Source of the DNA: Cochliopodium minus
Lineage: Eukaryota; Discosea; Himatismenida; Cochliopodiidae
Assembly: GCA_024220525.1 (NCBI GenBank)
Contig: JAMYWO010000316.1
Coordinates: 1-34,026, forward strand
Direction of reading: 5' to 3'
Length of the DNA: 34,026 nt
Position 1 is the stretch's first letter. The number at the start of each line of letters is the position of its first letter. The translations under genes and the position numbers were made by a program. Below are positions 3,000 to 20,266 of the stretch, piece by piece. The notes under the pieces are model-generated. The model was given only the letters and a program-made list of their open reading frames with translations, had not been told where the DNA came from and did not search any database.

Positions 3000-3121
3000 T
3001 CAATTTTTTTAAATTTTAATCTCTTATTTGTTGAATCAAAGAAAAATACTTTAATGGTTTGTTTGAAAAGAATTGAATCAGCAAAGAACAAAGATTTTAT
3101 TTAAAATAAATATATGAAAAA

Positions 3122-3194
3122 GACTCCTTAGCTCCAATGGTAGAGTGGACGACTCCAGATCGTTTGGTTATCGGTTCGAGTCCGATAGGGGTCT
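3122..3194 (+). tRNA. tRNA-Trp (anticodon CCA)
   Basis: Full cloverleaf. Acceptor GACTCCT/AGGGGTC (one G-T pair), D arm GCTC/GAGT, anticodon stem GACGA/TCGTT with loop CTCCAGA, five-base variable loop, T stem ATCGG/CCGAT with loop TTCGAGT. The anticodon is CCA. There is no intron. The discriminator base is T, whereas eukaryotic tRNA-Trp normally carries A or G there. It lies 122 bp upstream of the Sel1 start, in divergent orientation. Confidence 0.93.
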
Positions 3195-3196
3195 TA

Positions 3197-4180: not shown

Positions 4181-6584
4181 ATGAAAACTATTTTATACCT
4201 TTTGATCATCTTTTTCATTTGTTTATGCATCTCAAAACCAATCAAAAAACAGAAATTGCCCATAGGAGATAAAATCAAGAACATAGTGGTTCTTATGATG
4301 GAGGTAAAAAAGAAATTAGAAAATATATCCCTTTTGATTTATTGAAATTTTAATAATATAGAATAGATCATTCGATCATTTCTTGGGTTGGTTAAAGGTA
4401 AAGAGATGAGCTGAATATAAATCAAAAATTAAATTTTCCTTTTCCATTATCTTTTAGAAAGATTATAATAGCACAATTGATGGATTGGTAGATGGGATGT
4501 CATGTGTTGTTGACGTTAATGATCCATCCAAGGGATCTCTGCCGATCACAAGAAAGGGATATGATATCAGCCCAAGTGATCCTCTTCATGACTTTCCAAA
4601 CATCAAATATCAGATCAATGATCAAAAGATGAATGGATTCATTGCAGATACAATAATGAATAAGCTTAATGAATCCAATGTGGTCTCAATGTAAGAAAAA
4701 AAAATTATACATTGATAATTCACTATTATATTTCTATAATATGGTTTCAATAAACCTTATTCAATTGATAATTTACAATCAATAATTCCGTATTTTTTAT
4801 ACTGACTCCGAGTTTTATTCTTTGTTGATATAAAATTAAAAATAATTATGAAACAAAATGTTGTTCATTTGGTTTCAATACAAAACGTAATAGATTATAC
4901 AAAGTAATAAGATTATACAAAAATTTTAAATAATAATATCTTTCACAGTTAAAAAAAACTCCGAGTTTTTTAGTCTCAATAAAAAAATTTATTCAATTAT
5001 TTAGGTTCGACTCTACTTCAGCACCAATCATCAACTTTTTGGCAAAGGAATTTGCAGTATTTGACAAATGGTTCTGCTCTTTGCCAGGACCTACTGACCC
5101 AAACAGGGGGTTTGGAATGTCAGGTACATCCAACGGTATGTTGAATAATTTTAATGGAACATTGTGGAGTCAAAAGTCCTATTTTGAATATCTCAGACAA
5201 AACAACAGATCTTTTTCTGGATATTATGTAAACAAAAATTCTTTTTATATAATTGATTTTTATTCAATTTTTTCTTTTTAAAAAAAATTTATTTATTTCT
5301 TAAATTTTTTTAATTTTTTCAAGCAACACGACCCATGGGCATTGATGTACTTTGAAGACATTCACCTTCCTATTAACAGTCAACATATCCACGAATTAGA
5401 TGAAACCTTTTACACAGACGTCGCAGCTGGAAAACTTCGTGACTTTACATGGCTTCAACCAAGAATGACTGGTAAAATAATAAATTTAAAAAATAAAAAA
5501 ATTATCTATTTTTTTGAACAAAATAGGAATACCCACATGGCAACATCCAGACGCTAGTATCATTTTTTTTAAAAAAGTTTTATTTTATTAATCATTTATT
5601 TCTAAAAGGTGTGATGGAAGGAGAGAGACTTATCAAATCAGTTTATGAAGCTTTGAGAAAATCTCCCCAATGGAACCAAACTTTATTTGTCATTACTTAC
5701 GACGAACATGGAGGGTAAAATTTATACCATAGATGTTTATTAAAGATAAACCATTAATTTTTTATTTCAGTTTTTATGATCATGTTGCACCTCCAAACAA
5801 AGGTAAACTTTTTTTTTATTTAAAATTTTTTTGTTTAAAACTTTTTTTGTTTTTATTTTAGGGGTATTTTTTTGCTTATTATCAAAATTTTAAAATATAA
5901 AAAAATTGAAATAGGTTCCTTCACCAGATAGTAACAAAAACATCTTTTTTTTTTTACATTATTTAATCATTTTATTGTTTTGAAATTTAAAGATGTAGTT
6001 GCTCGTAATGGATTCACATTTGATAGATTAGGAATTAGAGTTCCAACCATTGCAATTTCACCATGGATAAGCAAAGGGCAAATCATTTCCGAAGCATTCA
6101 AGGGAGAACAACCTACTCCTACCTCCCATTACGATGCCACCTCCATTTTGTCCACTTCCAATAAAATTTTGGGAATCAAAGCTGATCCTTTGACTAAAAG
6201 AATGGGATGGGCAAATACTTTCGAAGGTGTTCTTGATTTAGATTCTATTCGTGATTGTCCTACTGTACTACCTGGTAAAAAGATAGTTTTTTTTTGGAAA
6301 TTATTTTCATTTTTTCAAAATTTTTTGAAATTAAAGAACTTCCTCCTCAAAATGCAAAATTGTTGTTGGAAGAGCAACGTAGAAGAAAATTAAATGATCA
6401 CTTAGAAGCCCAAATCTTGTTTTATTGCAAAATGAACCACCCTGAGGAATCAAATTGCTATGAAGAAAGAATACATGAGCTCACCAATCAAGGATTGGCA
6501 AGTGATTGGATCTTGAAAGAAGTAGATGTTTTTATGACTAAAATTCGTATCAAAGAAAAACAAATGAAATATTTTACAAATTAA
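4181..6584 (+). CDS. secreted non-specific phospholipase C-like phosphoesterase (12 exons, 492 aa)
   Basis: The family (plant NPC and bacterial PLC, phosphoesterase family) hydrolyses phosphatidylcholine and related lipids to diacylglycerol. Residues 1-19 are a signal peptide. Family motifs appear in order: [11 protein letters not shown] (41-51), [13 protein letters not shown] then FYDHV (about 293-305), and [15 protein letters not shown] (328-342). Exons: 4181-4303, 4362-4397, 4458-4690, 5005-5227, 5324-5471, 5527-5556, 5609-5714, 5771-5802, 5862-5863, 5915-5930, 5993-6274 and 6337-6584, total 1479 nt or 493 codons. The 2-nt exon GG plus the next 16-nt exon supply GVPSPD, which matches the family at this place. 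Skipping both also keeps the frame, giving 486 aa. The tail of about 80 residues after DCPTVLP is charged and helical. It likely acts in digestive vacuoles or outside the cell. The 3' end is 32 bp from the convergent F-box-like gene. Confidence 0.9.
4805..4969. repeat. two copies of ACTCCGAGTTTT inside a phospholipase intron
   Basis: The 12-mer ACTCCGAGTTTT occurs at 4805-4816 and 4958-4969. Each core is a near palindrome (AACTC-C-GAGTT in the second copy). Both lie in the 314-nt third intron, which is several times longer than most introns here. Confidence 0.6.
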
Positions 6585-6616: not shown

Positions 6617-8573
6617 TTAATACAAATTATCAACACCCAATTTAACAGATATTAATTTAAATATATCTATTTTTATTTCTTTATTGTTCTTCGTTTCAAA
6701 AGTACTCTTTCTTGATATTGCATTCAATATTTCTTCTTTAAATTTTTCTAGTTCTTTGTTGCTCTTTTCCTTGAAATGTTTTTCTACAAATTCTTCATTA
6801 AATATTTCTTCAATAACTTTTTTTGCATTATCATGTAACTTGTTTATTTTTTCAGAACTCATTTTCAAAACTAAATAAAATAAATAAAAAAATAAGAAAT
6901 TTAAAATTTTAAATTGGTTTTTTTACCATTACTTTCAATGGGATAAAACTTTTTTGCTTGACTTTCTAATATTTTATCACAAATTAACCAATATTCAATA
7001 AAAGAGTATTCCTCTTCCATCTCATAGTTCAATAAAAAGTCTAATTGTTTGACAAAAATGTGAGAATAATCTAAAAAACCATTTTCTTGTATTTGGAGAA
7101 TAAATCTCCCATAAGTGGATACAGATGCAATGTCAGAAATTTTTTTGGAGAAAATACAAGGGAAATCTCTTCTCAAATGAGAATTCCAAACCATATTATC
7201 TCTTGAAGCTTCCAACCATTCTTTACTTATTAATAAAATTGAAACATCAAAAAAAAATAATTTGAAATAAAATTATTTAATTGAAAATATTTTTAAAAAT
7301 ATCATTTTACCTAACTAGGGATGTTCTTAATGTTTCTCTTGCTGAAAAATTGGTCAAAATTTGTTTAATTATGTACATTCTCGTTGCCTTTATACTTGGT
7401 AAAATAAATTGATCTTTGTCTTCCAATCCTAAAAAATGAATTCGGTTCCTTGATCTATTGTTTTGTTTGATCTTCAATCTGTTCAACAAAATTTTTTTCT
7501 CTTCTGTATCAGTCCTCAAAACCATGCAAGCAACCTAAATAAAAAGTAAAAAATAAAAAATAAAAAGTAAAAAATAAAAAATAAAAAATAAAAAATAAAA
7601 AATAAAAAATAAAAAATAAGAATTTACTTGAATGGAATATGAAAAATCTATTTCTATTTTCACTTTGAAAAATAGTTCTTTCCTAATCAAATTTACAAAG
7701 TGAAGAAAAGACTCCCGGAAATGATGGAATCCATACTTATTTTCTTCCTCTCCTCTAACTTTCGACAAAATTCCTTTTACAAATTTATCCTGGAATTATG
7801 ATAAATCAAGTGTTTCATAAAACAGGAGATGTTGGTTTATATTAAATGTACAAATCTGCCTTTTTATTTNAATTTAATATTAAAAATTAATTGAATTTAC
7901 CTGATGTTTTGAGGAATAAAATGGGTGTTAAGATTGACTCCTATTTTAAAATTATTTTTAATTTTTTGTTGTTTAATACAATAGCTTTTCTAATTATTTT
8001 TGTTTAATTTTTTTATTATTTTTTAAATTTTTTTGATGGAAATTTTGTGAAAAAAAAAATCTTTTAATTATTTTTAAATTTTTGAATTATACCATCTTGA
8101 AAAAAGATTGTGGCTAATGTTGGAGCATCCTCAGCAAGATCCTCTCCATCTAAAGCACCAAATTTTTTATTTGTGAAAAAGAGATCTTGTTGTTTTCCAT
8201 TTTCCTGAAAATGTTTCTTGTTTTCAACATAATAAACCATCACCTTTTGAAGAAATCCTTCTTTGATTCTCAACAATTTTTCACTCCTGGTAACTTTTTC
8301 TTTTCTAACATCCACTTCCATTTTCATTTTTAAATTTGGGTTTCTGTACATTTCTTCAAAAATCAATTTGTTAGATTCAAATCTTTGAAGTGATCCCAAT
8401 TCTCCTTCCCTTGAATCTTCCAATTTAATATAGCTCAATTTGAGAAGCTCGACAAATTGTAATCTACTTCCATTATCTAACAAAAATTCCAATTTTACTA
8501 GACCCTACCAAAAATTGGATTAAAATCAAATAATATAGATGGGAATCAAGATATTTCAACCCCTCATTTTCAT
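6617..8573 (-). CDS. F-box-like protein (8 exons, about 466 aa)
   Basis: An F-box-like segment lies mid-protein: ILTNFSARETLRTSLVSKEW followed by LEASRDNMVWNSHLRRDF. This is the typical VSKxW...N.LW pattern of F-box helices. F-box proteins recruit substrates to SCF ubiquitin ligases. Minus-strand exons: 8573-8561, 8497-8093, 7940-7901, 7855-7852, 7789-7628, 7534-7311, 7225-6927 and 6870-6617; the sum is 1401 nt, 467 codons with the stop. The 4-nt exon ATTT is needed to keep the frame between its neighbours and is tentative. The start (MKMR on a 13-nt first exon with a GTTGAA donor) is also uncertain. The N-terminal 150 residues match no domain I know. The last 85 residues are Lys/Glu-rich and helical (starting at KMSSEKINKLHDNAKK). 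One intron holds a heptanucleotide repeat and another holds the undetermined base. Confidence 0.65.
7540..7618. repeat. heptanucleotide microsatellite (AAAAAAT)n in an intron
   Basis: About 11 copies of a 7-bp unit AAAAAAT, with two G variants at the left side, fill most of the intron 7535-7627 of the F-box-like gene. It is a length-variable simple repeat and adds no coding potential. Confidence 0.85.
7870..7870. other. undetermined base (n)
   Basis: The only ambiguous base in the window. It falls in an intron of the F-box-like gene, near the tentative 4-nt exon, and does not change the protein model. Confidence 0.95.
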
Positions 8574-14476: not shown

Positions 14477-17283
14477 ATGGAGGATTTGGTATATACTTGC
14501 ACATTATGCGATTGTGATGCATGTAATTTTTTTTTTTTTCAAAATAATAATTTTATGCATAAAATAAACGATATATGTGATTATAGAAACCTCAATTATC
14601 TGACAAATTTATATTTATTAATTCATAATTTTCATTTCCAGTTATTAGAAAGATGCCAACTTCCGAATATTGCAAGAATTGTGTTCATAAAGAAGCAGAA
14701 CATCATAATGTTAAAATATCTTTAATGAATGATAGTTCAGTTAGATATAACAGGTAAATTACATTGATATCACAAATAATAATCAAAATTCAATCTTAAA
14801 TGTGAAAATAAAGATATACAGTCAAGAAGATAAATAGAGTGATGAAAAATTCCTCAACAAATATTTTGCAAGGAGGAAAATCTCCCTCAACTGAAATGTT
14901 AGAATCAATTGATCTTTCAAATGAAATAATAGAAAATATAAAGGAAAAATCAAAACCACTCATAAAATTAAAATCATTCAACAATACAATGGCAATAATA
15001 TTCTTTTTTTTTTTTTTGCCTCTTAAATATAATTTCTTTTAATAAAAAACAGATATACAAGAAATCAAAAAAAGATTTGATCATAGATGAGATTATTTCA
15101 ACAGAAAAAGATTACGTAAATTCACTGACAATACTTAGAGATACATACTATACATCTTTCCAACTTATTCTTTCAACTTCCGAACTCAACACAATATTCT
15201 CAAATTTACAAGAAATAATTGATGTAAACAATAAATTTTATGAGAAATTAAAAGAAGTACCTGAATCTAGGAAGCCTATTCGGTCATTAATAAAGGCATT
15301 TGGACATATGGTATAAGTTTTTCTTTGAAAAAATTTTAATTTTATGAATTTTTGTTTAAAGGAATCTTTCGTCTACCTATATGCCACATATGGTCTTTCA
15401 TATAAAGATGCCAATAAACTTATCACAAGATTAAAAAAAGAAAATTTGGAATTTTCAAAGAGATTGTTAGAACTAGAAAAAAAAGACGAAAAAAAGTGGG
15501 GAATTCAATCTTATTTAATCATTCCTGTGCAAAGAGTTTGTCGGTAAATAAATAAATTTATTTTTTATTTGACATGATAAGCTATATTTTTTATTATTTA
15601 GGTATCCATTATTGCTGAAAGTAAAATTTTTATTATCTATTTAACTGGTTAATAGTAATTTAATTTTTAAAGACTCTTATTTCTTCTCTAGATAAAGAAA
15701 ACGAGCATACCAAAACATTAATTGAAACCCAACAAAATTATGAACATCTTGTGGATGAAATTGATCAGTTTATCATAAAAGAAGAAAACAAAAAATTATT
15801 ATTACATTTAAGTGAGAGAACACAAATCAAGGGATTCAACATTAATGAGCAAAGCAGATTCATCATACATCAATGTGAAGAAAATACTCAAACAAAATTG
15901 AAGAAAAGAACAAAATTAAGAGAAATTTACATTTTCAATGATATCTTTGTTCATATAAACAAATCTAAAAACACCAAGAACCCCAATGCTCTCATCGACC
16001 CTAAATTGTGCAAAATTACTGGTTTACAATCGAAGGAGCAGAAAATAATAACAATAACAAACCCCAATTTTACCAAAAAGCGTGTTTTCAATATATATTG
16101 TCAAACTCAAAGTAGCTTCAATAAATTATTCACCAACCTCAAAAAAGTAGTTTCAAAGCAAAGAAAATTACAAGAGTATGAGTATTGTGGATTCCTTCTC
16201 TTGGACAACAAAGGTAGTGACTTGATTTTTTAAAAAAATATTTATTAACTTTTCAAAAAAAAAAACAGAGTTTCCAATAAAATTTAGAAAAATCTCTAAT
16301 GCAAAAAATAATCAACAAAGTCAAATTATAACATCAATATATGTTGATAATAATCTTTGGTTGGTAAAGAAAAACTCTGTGGTGGAAGTATTCAACATCT
16401 CTGACAAACAAGAAATAAACTCGTTTGTTGTAGACCCTGAAACAAAATCTGGAATAACACAAATTTGTTTTGATGGAAACCATATTTTCTTTTCGATGGA
16501 AAGTGGGAAGTTGTTTGTTTATGACATCAATCAGAAAAAGGTGGAAACTAATGATACAAACTTTCATTCATCAAAAATAAACTGCCTCACCTTCTTGGAA
16601 AACGAAAATTGTTTTGCTTCTTCTGATTCAAGTGAGACTCTTTGTTTTTGGATGTTCGAAAAAGGACAGTTTCAAATGATCAAAAAACTTGATGTAAAAG
16701 ATAATGTTTGTTTCATCTACTCCTTCAAAGACAAAAACGATAATCACATAGTTTTAGTTTCTTCTTATAACGAAAATAAGAAAACAACTATCTACAAAAT
16801 ATCAGACAGTGTAAACACAAATATTTCTACCAATAATTTAGAAATCAAAGAAAGCAGACTCGAAGAAGTATCGGTAGTTAAAGGAATAATTAACTCGATG
16901 TGCTATTCTTCAGGAAACTTGTGGGTTGGAATTGATAGTAATATAAAAGTATTTCACCTTGAACCAGAGTTTAAAGAAGTCTTTTCAATCAAAAATCCTC
17001 ACAAAAGAACAAAAGTAACCATCCTTCTTTTAATCTTTATGACTATCAAAATTTTTCCTTCTTCATTTAGGTGACACAAATCTTCTGTATTCATGATATT
17101 GTTTGTTCATTTGGTCAAGATTCATCTGTCAAGATATGGGATAATAGAAACTATCAGTCTCTTATGGTTCTTGAGGAACATAATGATCAGATCGTTAAAG
17201 CAATTGTAAAATATGATAATATCTTTTCTATTTCTAATTCTGGTGAGATATTCAAATGGTATTTCCAAAGAGGAGGAGTGTAA
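14477..17283 (+). CDS. RhoGEF (DH-PH) with N-terminal zinc motif and C-terminal WD40 propeller, paralogue 1 (756 aa)
   Basis: Predicted Rho-family guanine nucleotide exchange factor. Order: zinc motif CTLCDCDAF...YCKNCVHKEAEHH (about 8-42), DH domain about 108-290 (IIDEIISTEKDYVNSLTILR, WGIQSYLIIPVQRVCRYPLL), PH-like region about 300-400 (IYIFNDIFVHINKS), then WD40 repeats to the end (SSDSSETLCFWMF, SFGQDSSVKIWDN). Exons: 14477-14522, 14642-14753, 14838-14991, 15053-15310, 15362-15543, 15602-15620, 15673-16213, 16269-17014 and 17071-17283; 2271 nt, 757 codons. The third intron has a GC donor (ATG|GCAATA). The third-exon acceptor (ATAG at 14834-14837) is chosen by phase. The QRVCRYPLL motif is the conserved DH helix that contacts the GTPase. 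It is a tandem duplicate of the next gene. The GTPase target (Rac or Rho) is not decided by sequence. Confidence 0.88.
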
Positions 17284-17541: not shown

Positions 17542-20266
17542 ATGAATGAAATAATAAATAATGAAACGAATAATGAAACAAACAAAAATGATATAGAGAC
17601 AGTAAATTGTCATATCTGTGATTGCAAGAAATTCGAGCCAAATATCTTTGATCCAAAATATTGTAAGACATGCTATCACAAGATGGAGAAACATAAGAAG
17701 AGCTATATGGTCGAAAGGCCAAAAACAAAACCATTTGTGATCAAGATGCCACAACAAACCAATAATTTTGTAAAGCTCAAAAAAACACCCAATAATAACA
17801 GTCCACCTAACAAAAATCATAGAGTTACATTGAGTCAACCTCTGGAACCTAAGGGAACAGATGTGGATATCAAGTTGGATCAATCATTGGATCTGGCAAT
17901 TTTAAAAAAGAACAAGGAAAGAGAAGAAAGAGATAAATTGACAGTATCTTTGGATATGAGCAACTTAACTAAGAAGGTTGATAGAAAAACATTATTGGTG
18001 ATGGAGATAATAGCTACCGAAAGTGATTATGTGAAATCAATATCTTATTTATTGAAGAATTATCTCAGCGTGTTGGAGAATACTATAACAACTAACGATA
18101 TAAATTTGATCTTCTCCAATATAATATGGATCTTCAACATTAATTCTGAATTCGAAAGTGAATTGAAAGAATTCCAAAGAAATCAAGGAGATATGAGTGA
18201 AATGTTCGATATTCTTAGTAAATATGTAAGATTTATAAAATAAAAAAAAAATGGGGGATCAAAAATTGAAATCCAATTAAATATCATGCCAATATACTTT
18301 AATATAGAATATTCAACATTATTTCAAATATTTATTCAAATATATTCAACATAAAATTTTTAGAGTGAATTATTCAAAGCTTACGGAACATACGGTTCTA
18401 GTTACGATGATGCTCTCATTCATCTTGCTCTACTCAAAAAAGATAATCAAAACTTTGCAAAAACATTAACTGAAATAGAAAAAAGTGACGGGAAAAAATG
18501 GAATCTAGAAACCTACCTCATCACTCCCATTCAAAGAATTTGCAGGTAATAAAATTATTTCATTTTTTTTTTTTAAAAAAAAAGCATTTATTTATTAAAT
18601 AAATTAGGTATCCTTTATTATTGAGAGTAAGAAATTTCTGATTTTTAAAATTCTTTCATTTTTTTAATTTTATTTTTGATTTAAACAATTCAAACGTTTA
18701 ACTGATATTTACCTTCTTATTTTATAATTTTATAAATTTTTAAAAAAATTAAAAGGAACTTATTTCTTGTACTGATACTGAAGATCCAAATTATAAAATA
18801 TTATTGGAAACCCACAAAAAAATAGAGAAAATAGTCAAAATAGTGAACGAATTTAAGAGATTAAAAGAGTTTACTGACCTAGTAAGAACAATCAGCGATA
18901 GAGTAAATGTAAAGGGATTCAGTCTGATACAACCAAATAGATACATTGTCTATCATTGTGAGGAAATGGTGCAAACGAAGCCTAAAAAAAAGTTTAAGCC
19001 TAGAGAAGTGTATGTGTTCAATGATATAATCTTGCATCTAAGGAAATCAAAGTCTACAAGCAACAAAAAAGCCATCATTTATCTTCAACATTGCGAGATC
19101 ACAACTAACAAAGAAGAACCTCTTACTTTCGCTTTGGAGAACAATACTTGGGACAAAAACTATATTTTCAGAGTTCAATGCAAAGAAGAAAGCAAATACA
19201 CCAACATCATTTCTTCGATCAACCAAAATTTGACCAAAAAGAAAAATGAGTATGAATACATCTCTTCGGGTCTTGTGCAGTTGAACAACAAAAATTATCC
19301 TATCAAGTATTGCGAAATATCCTCCAGTGACTCCAATAAAGTAGTTGTCAATGCATGTTTCGTGGGGAAAAAGATTTGGATCGTACATGAGAAATCAGAG
19401 GTAGATGTACTTTCCATCTCCAAAAAATCAGTTACAAGATCTTTTCAAGTTGATGAAGAAAATCATCACGAAATAACACAGATCTGTTACAATGGAAGCC
19501 ACGTCTTTTTTTCAACTGAACATGGAAAGATAGTCGTATTCGATCCAAAGGAAAGAAAAAGAGTTGAGATTGATAATTATCCAAACTTTCACACTTCTAA
19601 AGTCAATAGTTTGGTTTATCTTGAGAATGAAAATTGTTTAGCTTCTTCTGATTCTAGTGGATCCCTTTGTTTTTGGAAGCTCGAAGGTAATCAAATAAAT
19701 TTGATCAACAAACAAAATGTCAAAGGGAATGTGAATCTCCTTTACTACTTCAAAGATGAAAGTAATACCCAAAAACTCTTTGTTTGCTCTTTCGAAGACA
19801 AGAAATCTACTATCTATTCTTTTGTCAATTATTTGAACTCTTCCGAAAGCAAACTAGAAGAAATTTACAAGATGGATGGAATCATCAATTCTATGTGCTA
19901 CTATTCTGGAAATCTTTGGATTGGCATTGATAAAAATATCAACGTTTACAATATCGCTACATTCAAAGAAGTTAGTGTCAAAAAAAATCCTCACAAAAGA
20001 ACTACAGTAAAAAAAAAAAATAATTTTTAAATTTAAATATTTTATTATCAATTTTATTTTAGGTCAATTCCATCAACAGTTTGGGAAAAATTATTCTTTC
20101 ATTTGGTCAAGACAGTTCAATAAGGTTGTGGCACTTTGACAATTTTGATTCTTTGATCATTTTGGAGAAACATAACGATCAAATCGTTTTCTCGATAGTA
20201 AAAGATGAAGGAGTTTACTCTATTTCAAAGAATGGAGAAATTCTAAAGTGGATATTTTCTTTTTGA
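17542..20266 (+). CDS. RhoGEF (DH-PH) with N-terminal zinc motif and C-terminal WD40 propeller, paralogue 2 (779 aa)
   Basis: Same architecture as the upstream neighbour. An Asn-rich lead is followed by the zinc motif CHICDCKKFEP...YCKTCYHKMEKH (23-51) and a Pro/Asn/Lys linker. The DH domain (about 150-335) has VMEIIATESDYVKSISYLL and LITPIQRICRYPLLL. A PH-like region (VYVFNDIILHLRKSKS) and WD40 repeats (SSDSSGSLCFWKL, SFGQDSSIRLWHF) follow. Five exons: 17542-18225, 18364-18545, 18608-18626, 18756-20006 and 20063-20266; 2340 nt, 780 codons. All four introns sit at the same places as in paralogue 1, including both sides of the 19-nt exon encoding YPLLLR. Four introns of paralogue 1 are missing here. 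The zinc motif and propeller likely direct membrane or partner binding, while the DH-PH part activates a Rho GTPase. Confidence 0.9.

Follow-up and report, generated by a model that had tools for sequence, protein, structure and literature searches.

A predicted two-nucleotide exon in a phospholipase C gene of Cochliopodium minus

Introduction

Tiny exons put to the test whether splice sites can be found by the spliceosome with no exon to guide it, and the locus described here raises that question in an acute form. Between exon 8 of a predicted phospholipase gene, which ends at position 5802, and the exon that begins at 5993, a 16-nt segment encodes VPSPD, and the original prediction held that this segment can be read in frame only if two further bases, GG, are spliced in ahead of it as an exon of their own. 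We ask whether a two-nucleotide exon is the best account of these bases, and whether other exons of comparable size occur in the same genome. Positions refer to the window, by which we mean the whole 34,026-base stretch of DNA that was analysed, 9000 of whose bases are G or C; the window is one contig (C313) of a 44.65-Mb assembly of 598 contigs.

Identity and layout of the gene

Positions 4181-6584 on the + strand of the window carry a gene of the PF04185 phosphoesterase family. The PF04185 profile matches the gene product at 246.8 bits, with a cut-off of 23, over positions 1-355 of its 356, and the product passes the curated whole-domain cut-off for non-specific phospholipase C (PF04185, NPC type). 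Its best solved relative is the non-specific phospholipase C4 (NPC4, 8hav; E 1.3e-72), which we take to be the Arabidopsis enzyme. On these matches the gene is predicted to encode a non-specific phospholipase C, with the layout given below, in which splice-site strengths are percentiles among the model introns introduced further on.

4181..4303, + strand: exon 1, with the ATG and a hydrophobic start (frame analysis, gene model)
4362..4397, + strand: exon 2 (frame analysis, homology to solved relatives)
4458..4690, + strand: exon 3 (frame analysis, gene model)
5005..5227, + strand: exon 4 (frame analysis, gene model)
5324..5471, + strand: exon 5 (frame analysis, gene model)
5527..5556, + strand: exon 6, 30 nt (frame analysis, gene model)
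5609..5714, + strand: exon 7, ending in DEHG and the GG of the next Gly codon (frame analysis, homology)
5771..5802, + strand: exon 8, 32 nt, ending AAA G, the G being the first base of the Gly311 codon (frame analysis, homology)
5803..5861, + strand: intron of 59 nt with strong sites, donor GTAAAC at the 84.5th and acceptor TTTTTATTTTAG at the 74.1 percentile
5862..5863, + strand: predicted microexon of 2 nt, GG, which supplies the last two bases of the GGG codon for Gly311 (frames, gene finder, shuffles, splicing enumeration)
5864..5914, + strand: intron of 51 nt with weaker sites, donor GTATTT at the 23.6th and acceptor GAAATAG at the 20.1 percentile
5915..5930, + strand: 16-nt exon GTTCCTTCACCAGATA, encoding VPSPD and the first base of Asn (frames, homology, gene finder)
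5931..5992, + strand: intron of 62 nt with weaker sites, donor at the 23.9th and acceptor at the 14.6th percentile
5993..6274, + strand: exon 11 (frame analysis, homology)
6337..6584, + strand: exon 12, with the stop codon (frame analysis, gene model)

When the 112-nt stretch 5803-5914 is counted as a single intron, all ten listed introns of the gene start with GTA and end with AG. Apart from this gene the genome has one PF04185 match (C337; L015 2800-4630, - strand), which was considered as a possible paralogue; it is phosphatase-like and only distantly related, lies by eye beside a similar tandem copy, and gave no information on the GVPSPD loop.

Reading frames and splice sites

With the VPSPD exon included, one open frame of 492 codons needs two extra bases between 5802 and 5915, just as had been claimed: joining 5802 directly to 5915 gives NKGSFTR followed by a stop, and inserting GG gives a single open coding sequence of 492 amino acids. 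Skipping only the exon at 5915-5930 produces NKGM and a stop, whereas removal of both small exons takes out 18 nt and retains the frame, also as foreseen, leaving 486 amino acids. The two bases are available in the motif TTTTAGGGGTATTT (TTTTAG, GG, GTATTT) at 5856-5869, within which GG occupies 5862-5863. The motif is thus present as described, with the difference that its start had been placed two bases late, at 5858 in a span of 5858-5869; the other coordinates (exon 8 ending at 5802, the VPSPD exon at 5915-5930, the next exon at 5993) and the frame statements were correct. The 112-nt stretch 5803-5914 holds a single internal AG, which ends at 5861, and three internal GTs, only one of which, at 5864, scores in the usual range. 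GG is accordingly bordered by GTAAAC...TTTTAG on one side and GTATTT...ATAG on the other, in introns of 59 and 51 nt. The sites flanking GG lie within the range of the 343 model introns, those of the second intron in the lowest quarter. A motif search for a branch point in the intron tails returned no clear one, and the GGG that the exon completes is a minority glycine codon (170 of 1197), which counts against the GG exon.

To enumerate the splicing products of 5771-6060 we allowed up to three successive GT-AG removals, with introns of 38-260 nt and with sites created at junctions included. Of the 54 GT-AG products, seven were in frame and open and only two of these carried VPSPD in frame. One is the GG product; the other deletes six residues and depends on a donor at 5784 that stands at the 1.7th percentile of model donors. 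With GC donors also allowed the enumeration grew to 94 products, 13 of them in frame, and the GG product was still the top-scoring one. Summed site scores rise with intron number and are comparable only between products that share their later introns. Because such sums favour multi-intron products, they do not by themselves reject the removal of both small exons as a single 190-nt intron (5803-5992), which yields the in-frame, 486-residue protein with a loop six residues shorter: its donor and acceptor sum to 9.4 for one intron, which per intron is no worse than the 26.0 that the GG form collects over three. This form must be judged on other grounds, which are given with the gene model and the alignments below.

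A frame gap of two bases might also be mimicked by a broken allele, or by an indel that arose in assembly or sequencing and lies in exon 8 or the 16-nt exon, and the window does contain one N. Against this reading, the rest of the gene is open across 492 amino acids, homopolymers in the two small exons are at most five bases long, and an indel would leave unexplained a strong acceptor placed exactly two bases before a GTA donor. We regard an indel or broken allele as extremely unlikely.

Gene prediction and chance controls

We evaluated the region with a gene finder that combines a frame-wise third-order coding model, donor and acceptor matrices and intron lengths. It was trained on 172,676 unmasked bases of the same genome under a minimum exon length of 9 nt, starting from seeds that comprised long open reading frames together with phospholipase exons 1-8 and their introns, 5803-5914 being left out. 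The trained model contains 80 genes with 343 introns, whose donors are mostly GTAAA and whose median length is 79 nt. Once small exons were allowed, the gene finder picked exactly GG and the 16-nt VPSPD exon, at 8.5 nats over the next best model, which skips both; intron cost, lengths and coding scores are all counted in that difference. The same choice was made, at +6.9 nats, when the coding model, splice matrices and lengths were retrained without the window, which leaves 266 introns; intron composition and rate parameters are kept from the full training. Skipping of both exons is what the gene finder chooses when exons shorter than 3 nt are forbidden. We dropped intron length as a main argument for the GG form, in which 59 and 51 nt had seemed to fit better than 112 nt: given the median of 79 nt and the 144 of 343 introns that measure 45-70 nt, a 112-nt intron is not unusual.

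Chance occurrence of such a configuration was gauged in several ways. Only 19 of the 1436 AGs on the + strand of the window score at least as well as the acceptor at 5861; the donor of the second intron at 5864 and its acceptor are weak, that donor being equalled or surpassed by 140 of the window's 1146 GTs, and this counts against the exon. When the interior of 5803-5914 was dinucleotide-shuffled in 5000 trials, with the first 6 and last 16 nt held fixed, a frame-restoring GT-AG microexon of up to 30 nt appeared in 183, and one that scored as well as GG in 31. Among other introns of 95-150 nt (n=67, giving 201 intron-by-frame trials) any microexon was found in nine trials and one of equal score in none.

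Homology around GVPSPD

The expectation that VPSPD falls at the matching place of the phospholipase C family was borne out, since the segment occupies the position of VPNPD in NPC4. NPC4 reads HVPTPVDGVPNPDG there and aligns without a gap across the GVPSPD of the gene product. Scores with NPC4 are 248.3 bits for the GG form, 242.5 for the form with KVPSPD and 229.4 for the form that skips both exons; against PF04185 the corresponding values are 246.8, 242.5 and 243.0. Across the six solved relatives listed, the GG form scores higher than the skipped form in four and lower in two (9gy2, 2d1g). Bacterial homologues, for which the best 80 of at least 583 relatives were used and all 80 fetched, give the same direction, with the GG form winning in 61, losing in 13 and tying in 6.

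These comparisons bear directly on the form in which both small exons are normally skipped. Bacterial loop lengths vary and the skipped form is the better one in the 13 of those best 80 of at least 583, but it falls 18.9 bits behind against NPC4 and gives no account of a spliceable VPSPD exon lying exactly at NPC4's VPNPD. The form is rejected by the gene model and by NPC4, as distinct from the summed site scores, and we consider it quite unlikely.

The original prediction named as its main alternative a non-canonical donor one base earlier, that is, one intron with a border such as GG-AG, which would give NK-VPSPD with no glycine. The alignments treat this form somewhat more kindly. KVPSPD scores slightly higher than the GG form in 44 of the best 80 of at least 583 bacterial homologues, lower in 16 and equal in 20, with a mean of +0.8 bits in its favour, and it is also higher in four of the six solved relatives (8k3g, 8yk5, 9gy2, 2d1g) and lower in two (8hav, 9gye), the GG form losing by 1.3-2.4 bits where it loses. 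Loop length is variable among these best 80 of at least 583, and the exact spacing PP-x-x-GVPNPDG was seen by eye in only 2 of the 80 (L050, L106); because loop length varies, this set does not discriminate for the glycine. Against NK-VPSPD, it requires a non-GT donor where canonical AG and GT sites supply the two missing bases, all ten listed introns of the gene begin with GTA and end with AG, and it trails the GG form by 5.8 bits with NPC4, which is the closest of the solved relatives, and by 4.3 bits with Pfam. The one-base-earlier donor is slightly favoured by most of the bacterial and solved-relative scores and weakened by its GG-AG borders, NPC4 and Pfam, and we judge it very unlikely.

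Conservation of GVPSPD had been proposed as a check on the exon, and the answer divides: the alignment to NPC4 is gapless, whereas the best 80 of at least 583 bacterial homologues do not demand the glycine. The predicted VPSPD exon is thus supported by the bacterial proteins, which taken alone leave the single glycine undecided, and the case for the putative Gly311 itself comes from NPC4 as nearest relative and from the canonical splice sites. GG is needed for the frame and for the homology, with the proviso that the bacterial set on its own does not call for the residue. The two-nucleotide reading is the best one by its frame and splice sites, by homology to NPC4 and by a gene model whose training excluded exons of this kind, and we conclude, from DNA and protein comparison, that the phospholipase gene very probably contains a 2-nt exon, GG (5862-5863), between GT-AG introns of 59 and 51 nt. 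Our confidence is slightly lowered because the one-base-earlier form is better in four of six solved relatives.

Proposed splicing mechanism and relation to known systems

In the predicted arrangement the Gly311 codon would be split, exon 8 contributing its first G and the two-nucleotide internal exon (5862-5863) the remaining GG. We propose that each short intron may be recognised as a unit by the spliceosome (intron definition), in which case the exon between two introns needs no minimum length. As a 2-nt exon falls below the footprint of either site and is too short to hold the acceptor machinery and U1 at once, the two introns would be removed successively, and the upstream 59-nt intron would probably be the first to go, given its strong and closely spaced donor and acceptor. 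This first removal would join AAAG to GG, and the rebuilt AAAGGG/GTATTT would act as donor for the second intron. Since AAAG and TTTTAG both end in G, GGG stands before GTATTT both before and after that step, leaving the second donor unchanged in sequence. Use of the GG exon would presumably be constitutive.

A two-nucleotide exon would indeed be among the smallest known, as had been suggested, although not the smallest, as 1-nt exons have been published (PMC4674806, PMC8831610). Arabidopsis APC11 contains a constitutive 1-nt exon for which intron definition with stepwise removal was proposed (PMC4674806), 1-nt exons occur in plant APC11 and VPS55 (PMC8831610), and a further 1-nt exon is reported in placozoan mitochondrial cox1 (PMC5436844). 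A nuclear exon of 2 nt was not found in the literature searched, which was mainly the openly available part, or by term look-up in the main text of PMC8831610, PMC8042270 and PMC12409088. The GG exon resembles the APC11 and VPS55 exons in being nuclear, protein-coding, far below any splice-site footprint and required for the frame; it differs in having two nucleotides rather than one, in lying in an AT-rich genome whose introns often measure 45-70 nt (144 of 343), and in being predicted here from DNA and homology.

Two other kinds of stepwise splicing invite comparison. Zero-nucleotide AG/GT recursive splicing, as described in PMC13149111, likewise places an acceptor almost directly before a donor and uses the two in two steps, but here two bases stand between AG and GT and would remain as exon, which departs from the definition of a zero-nucleotide site, and in place of very long introns there are two of 59 and 51 nt. 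Fungal stwintrons also combine two adjacent introns with an obligatory order of removal, but at this locus nothing breaks up a splice site of an outer intron, and GTATTT lies intact as a donor downstream of GG. The locus falls outside the stwintron definition as well: with junction-made sites allowed, neither in-frame product that carries VPSPD makes use of one.

Further predicted tiny exons in this genome

Applied to the same sample, the gene finder returned 286 internal exons, 12 of them of at most 15 nt and six of at most 10 nt, one of which, of 8 nt, was rejected. Plant genomes have internal exons of the order of 100,000. Against this rough denominator the density here looks higher than that of plant microexons of up to 15 nt, of which 2,398 were found in ten species (PMC8831610) and which the GG exon resembles in being tiny, conserved and easily overlooked by annotation. 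Six other predicted tiny exons (4, 7, 7, 11, 14 and 15 nt) have support from protein comparisons that formed no part of the gene prediction:

L019 4417-4420, + strand: 4-nt exon ATGG in a gamma-glutamyl hydrolase gene, gapless there against 4l7q and 1l9x
L020 9109-9123 and 9047-9053, - strand: 15-nt and 7-nt exons in the middle of the P-loop GNPGVGKST of an AIG1-like GTPase (protein homology)
L023 8889-8895, - strand: 7-nt exon encoding DMC of VLDMCASPG in an NSUN6-like RNA methyltransferase, gapless against ILDLCAAPG
L023 5902-5915 and 5968-5978, + strand: neighbouring exons of 14 and 11 nt that fall in PRMPWHDVHLMV of a phospholipase D, gapless there against PLD1 and PLD2

In the hydrolase gene, the best model without the 4-nt exon loses the frame of the second half and its Peptidase C26 match falls to profile positions 18-120 of 219. 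The AIG1-like protein has a second GTPase domain in which the same nine residues are encoded by only two exons, a long one giving GNPGVGK and the first bases of the serine, after which an intron falls where the 7-nt exon of the first domain ends. The methyltransferase exon contains an internal alternative donor that would make a 4-nt version, in frame but reading VLDIASPG. A second 4-nt exon, ATTG (L019 8940-8943, - strand), is a prediction in a hydrophobic protein that gave no Pfam match. The rejected 8-nt exon lies at 7852-7859 on the - strand of the window, in a model that reads through a stop codon.

A gene-level control on stretches cut around the 80 genes found three microexons of at most 10 nt with a gain of at least 8, and 30 rounds of intron shuffling at the gene level gave a mean of 0.23 and a maximum of one. 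Three is lower than the count in the sample-wide prediction, apparently because each stretch had been cut at the gene boundaries of the model in which small exons were forbidden. The introns around predicted exons of at most 11 nt, the rejected 8-nt exon left out, measure 51-68 nt in 12 of 12 cases, lengths that we do not count as evidence because the gene finder itself favours them.

GG and the 16-nt exon might form a regulated cassette, skipped jointly as an 18-nt switch. Both-in and both-out forms are in frame and each single skip leads to a premature stop, as such a switch would have it, and the idea is compatible with the two-nucleotide exon preferred here; the frames, however, are all that speaks for regulation, and the other adjacent pairs of tiny exons (15+7 in the AIG1-like gene, 14+11 in phospholipase D) are not multiples of three, which argues that the 18-nt symmetry is not general in this genome. 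We consider a regulated cassette unlikely.

Most likely the two-nucleotide exon marks the far end of an abundant and normal population of tiny exons, which would be spliced stepwise by intron definition, and extremely short exons seem to be routinely spliced in this species. The density of tiny exons in the genome is the more interesting possibility, its basis being a small sample and predictions. In its strongest form, to which we give about even chances, exon size would be almost fully relaxed, with exons of 2-15 nt routine in conserved genes, making up a few per cent of internal exons, lying within conserved motifs such as the P-loop between introns of about 50-68 nt, and used constitutively by pure intron definition, stepwise and with no lower limit. 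If exons of 2, 4 and 7 nt are ordinary here, the genome would offer a natural system for asking whether the spliceosome requires an exon. In genomes of this kind automatic annotation will disrupt conserved proteins: with tiny exons forbidden, the models lose the first P-loop of the GTPase, and in the gamma-glutamyl hydrolase the second half falls out of frame.

Neighbouring features of the window

Several further features of the window were noted. Two related genes stand in tandem on the + strand at 15344-17283 and 17542-20266, each with a predicted 19-nt exon at the corresponding position; the motif QR-C-RYPLLL leads us to take them as RhoGEF-like. For the first of these, one model begins with a predicted 3-nt exon consisting of the ATG only (15308-15310). 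A single N lies at 7870, where the - strand gene model (6617-8321) reads through a stop and is probably wrong, and an AT-rich short tandem array, recognised by eye at 7545-7620, falls inside a predicted intron of that gene. A tRNA-Trp (CCA) gene occupies 3121-3195 on the + strand.
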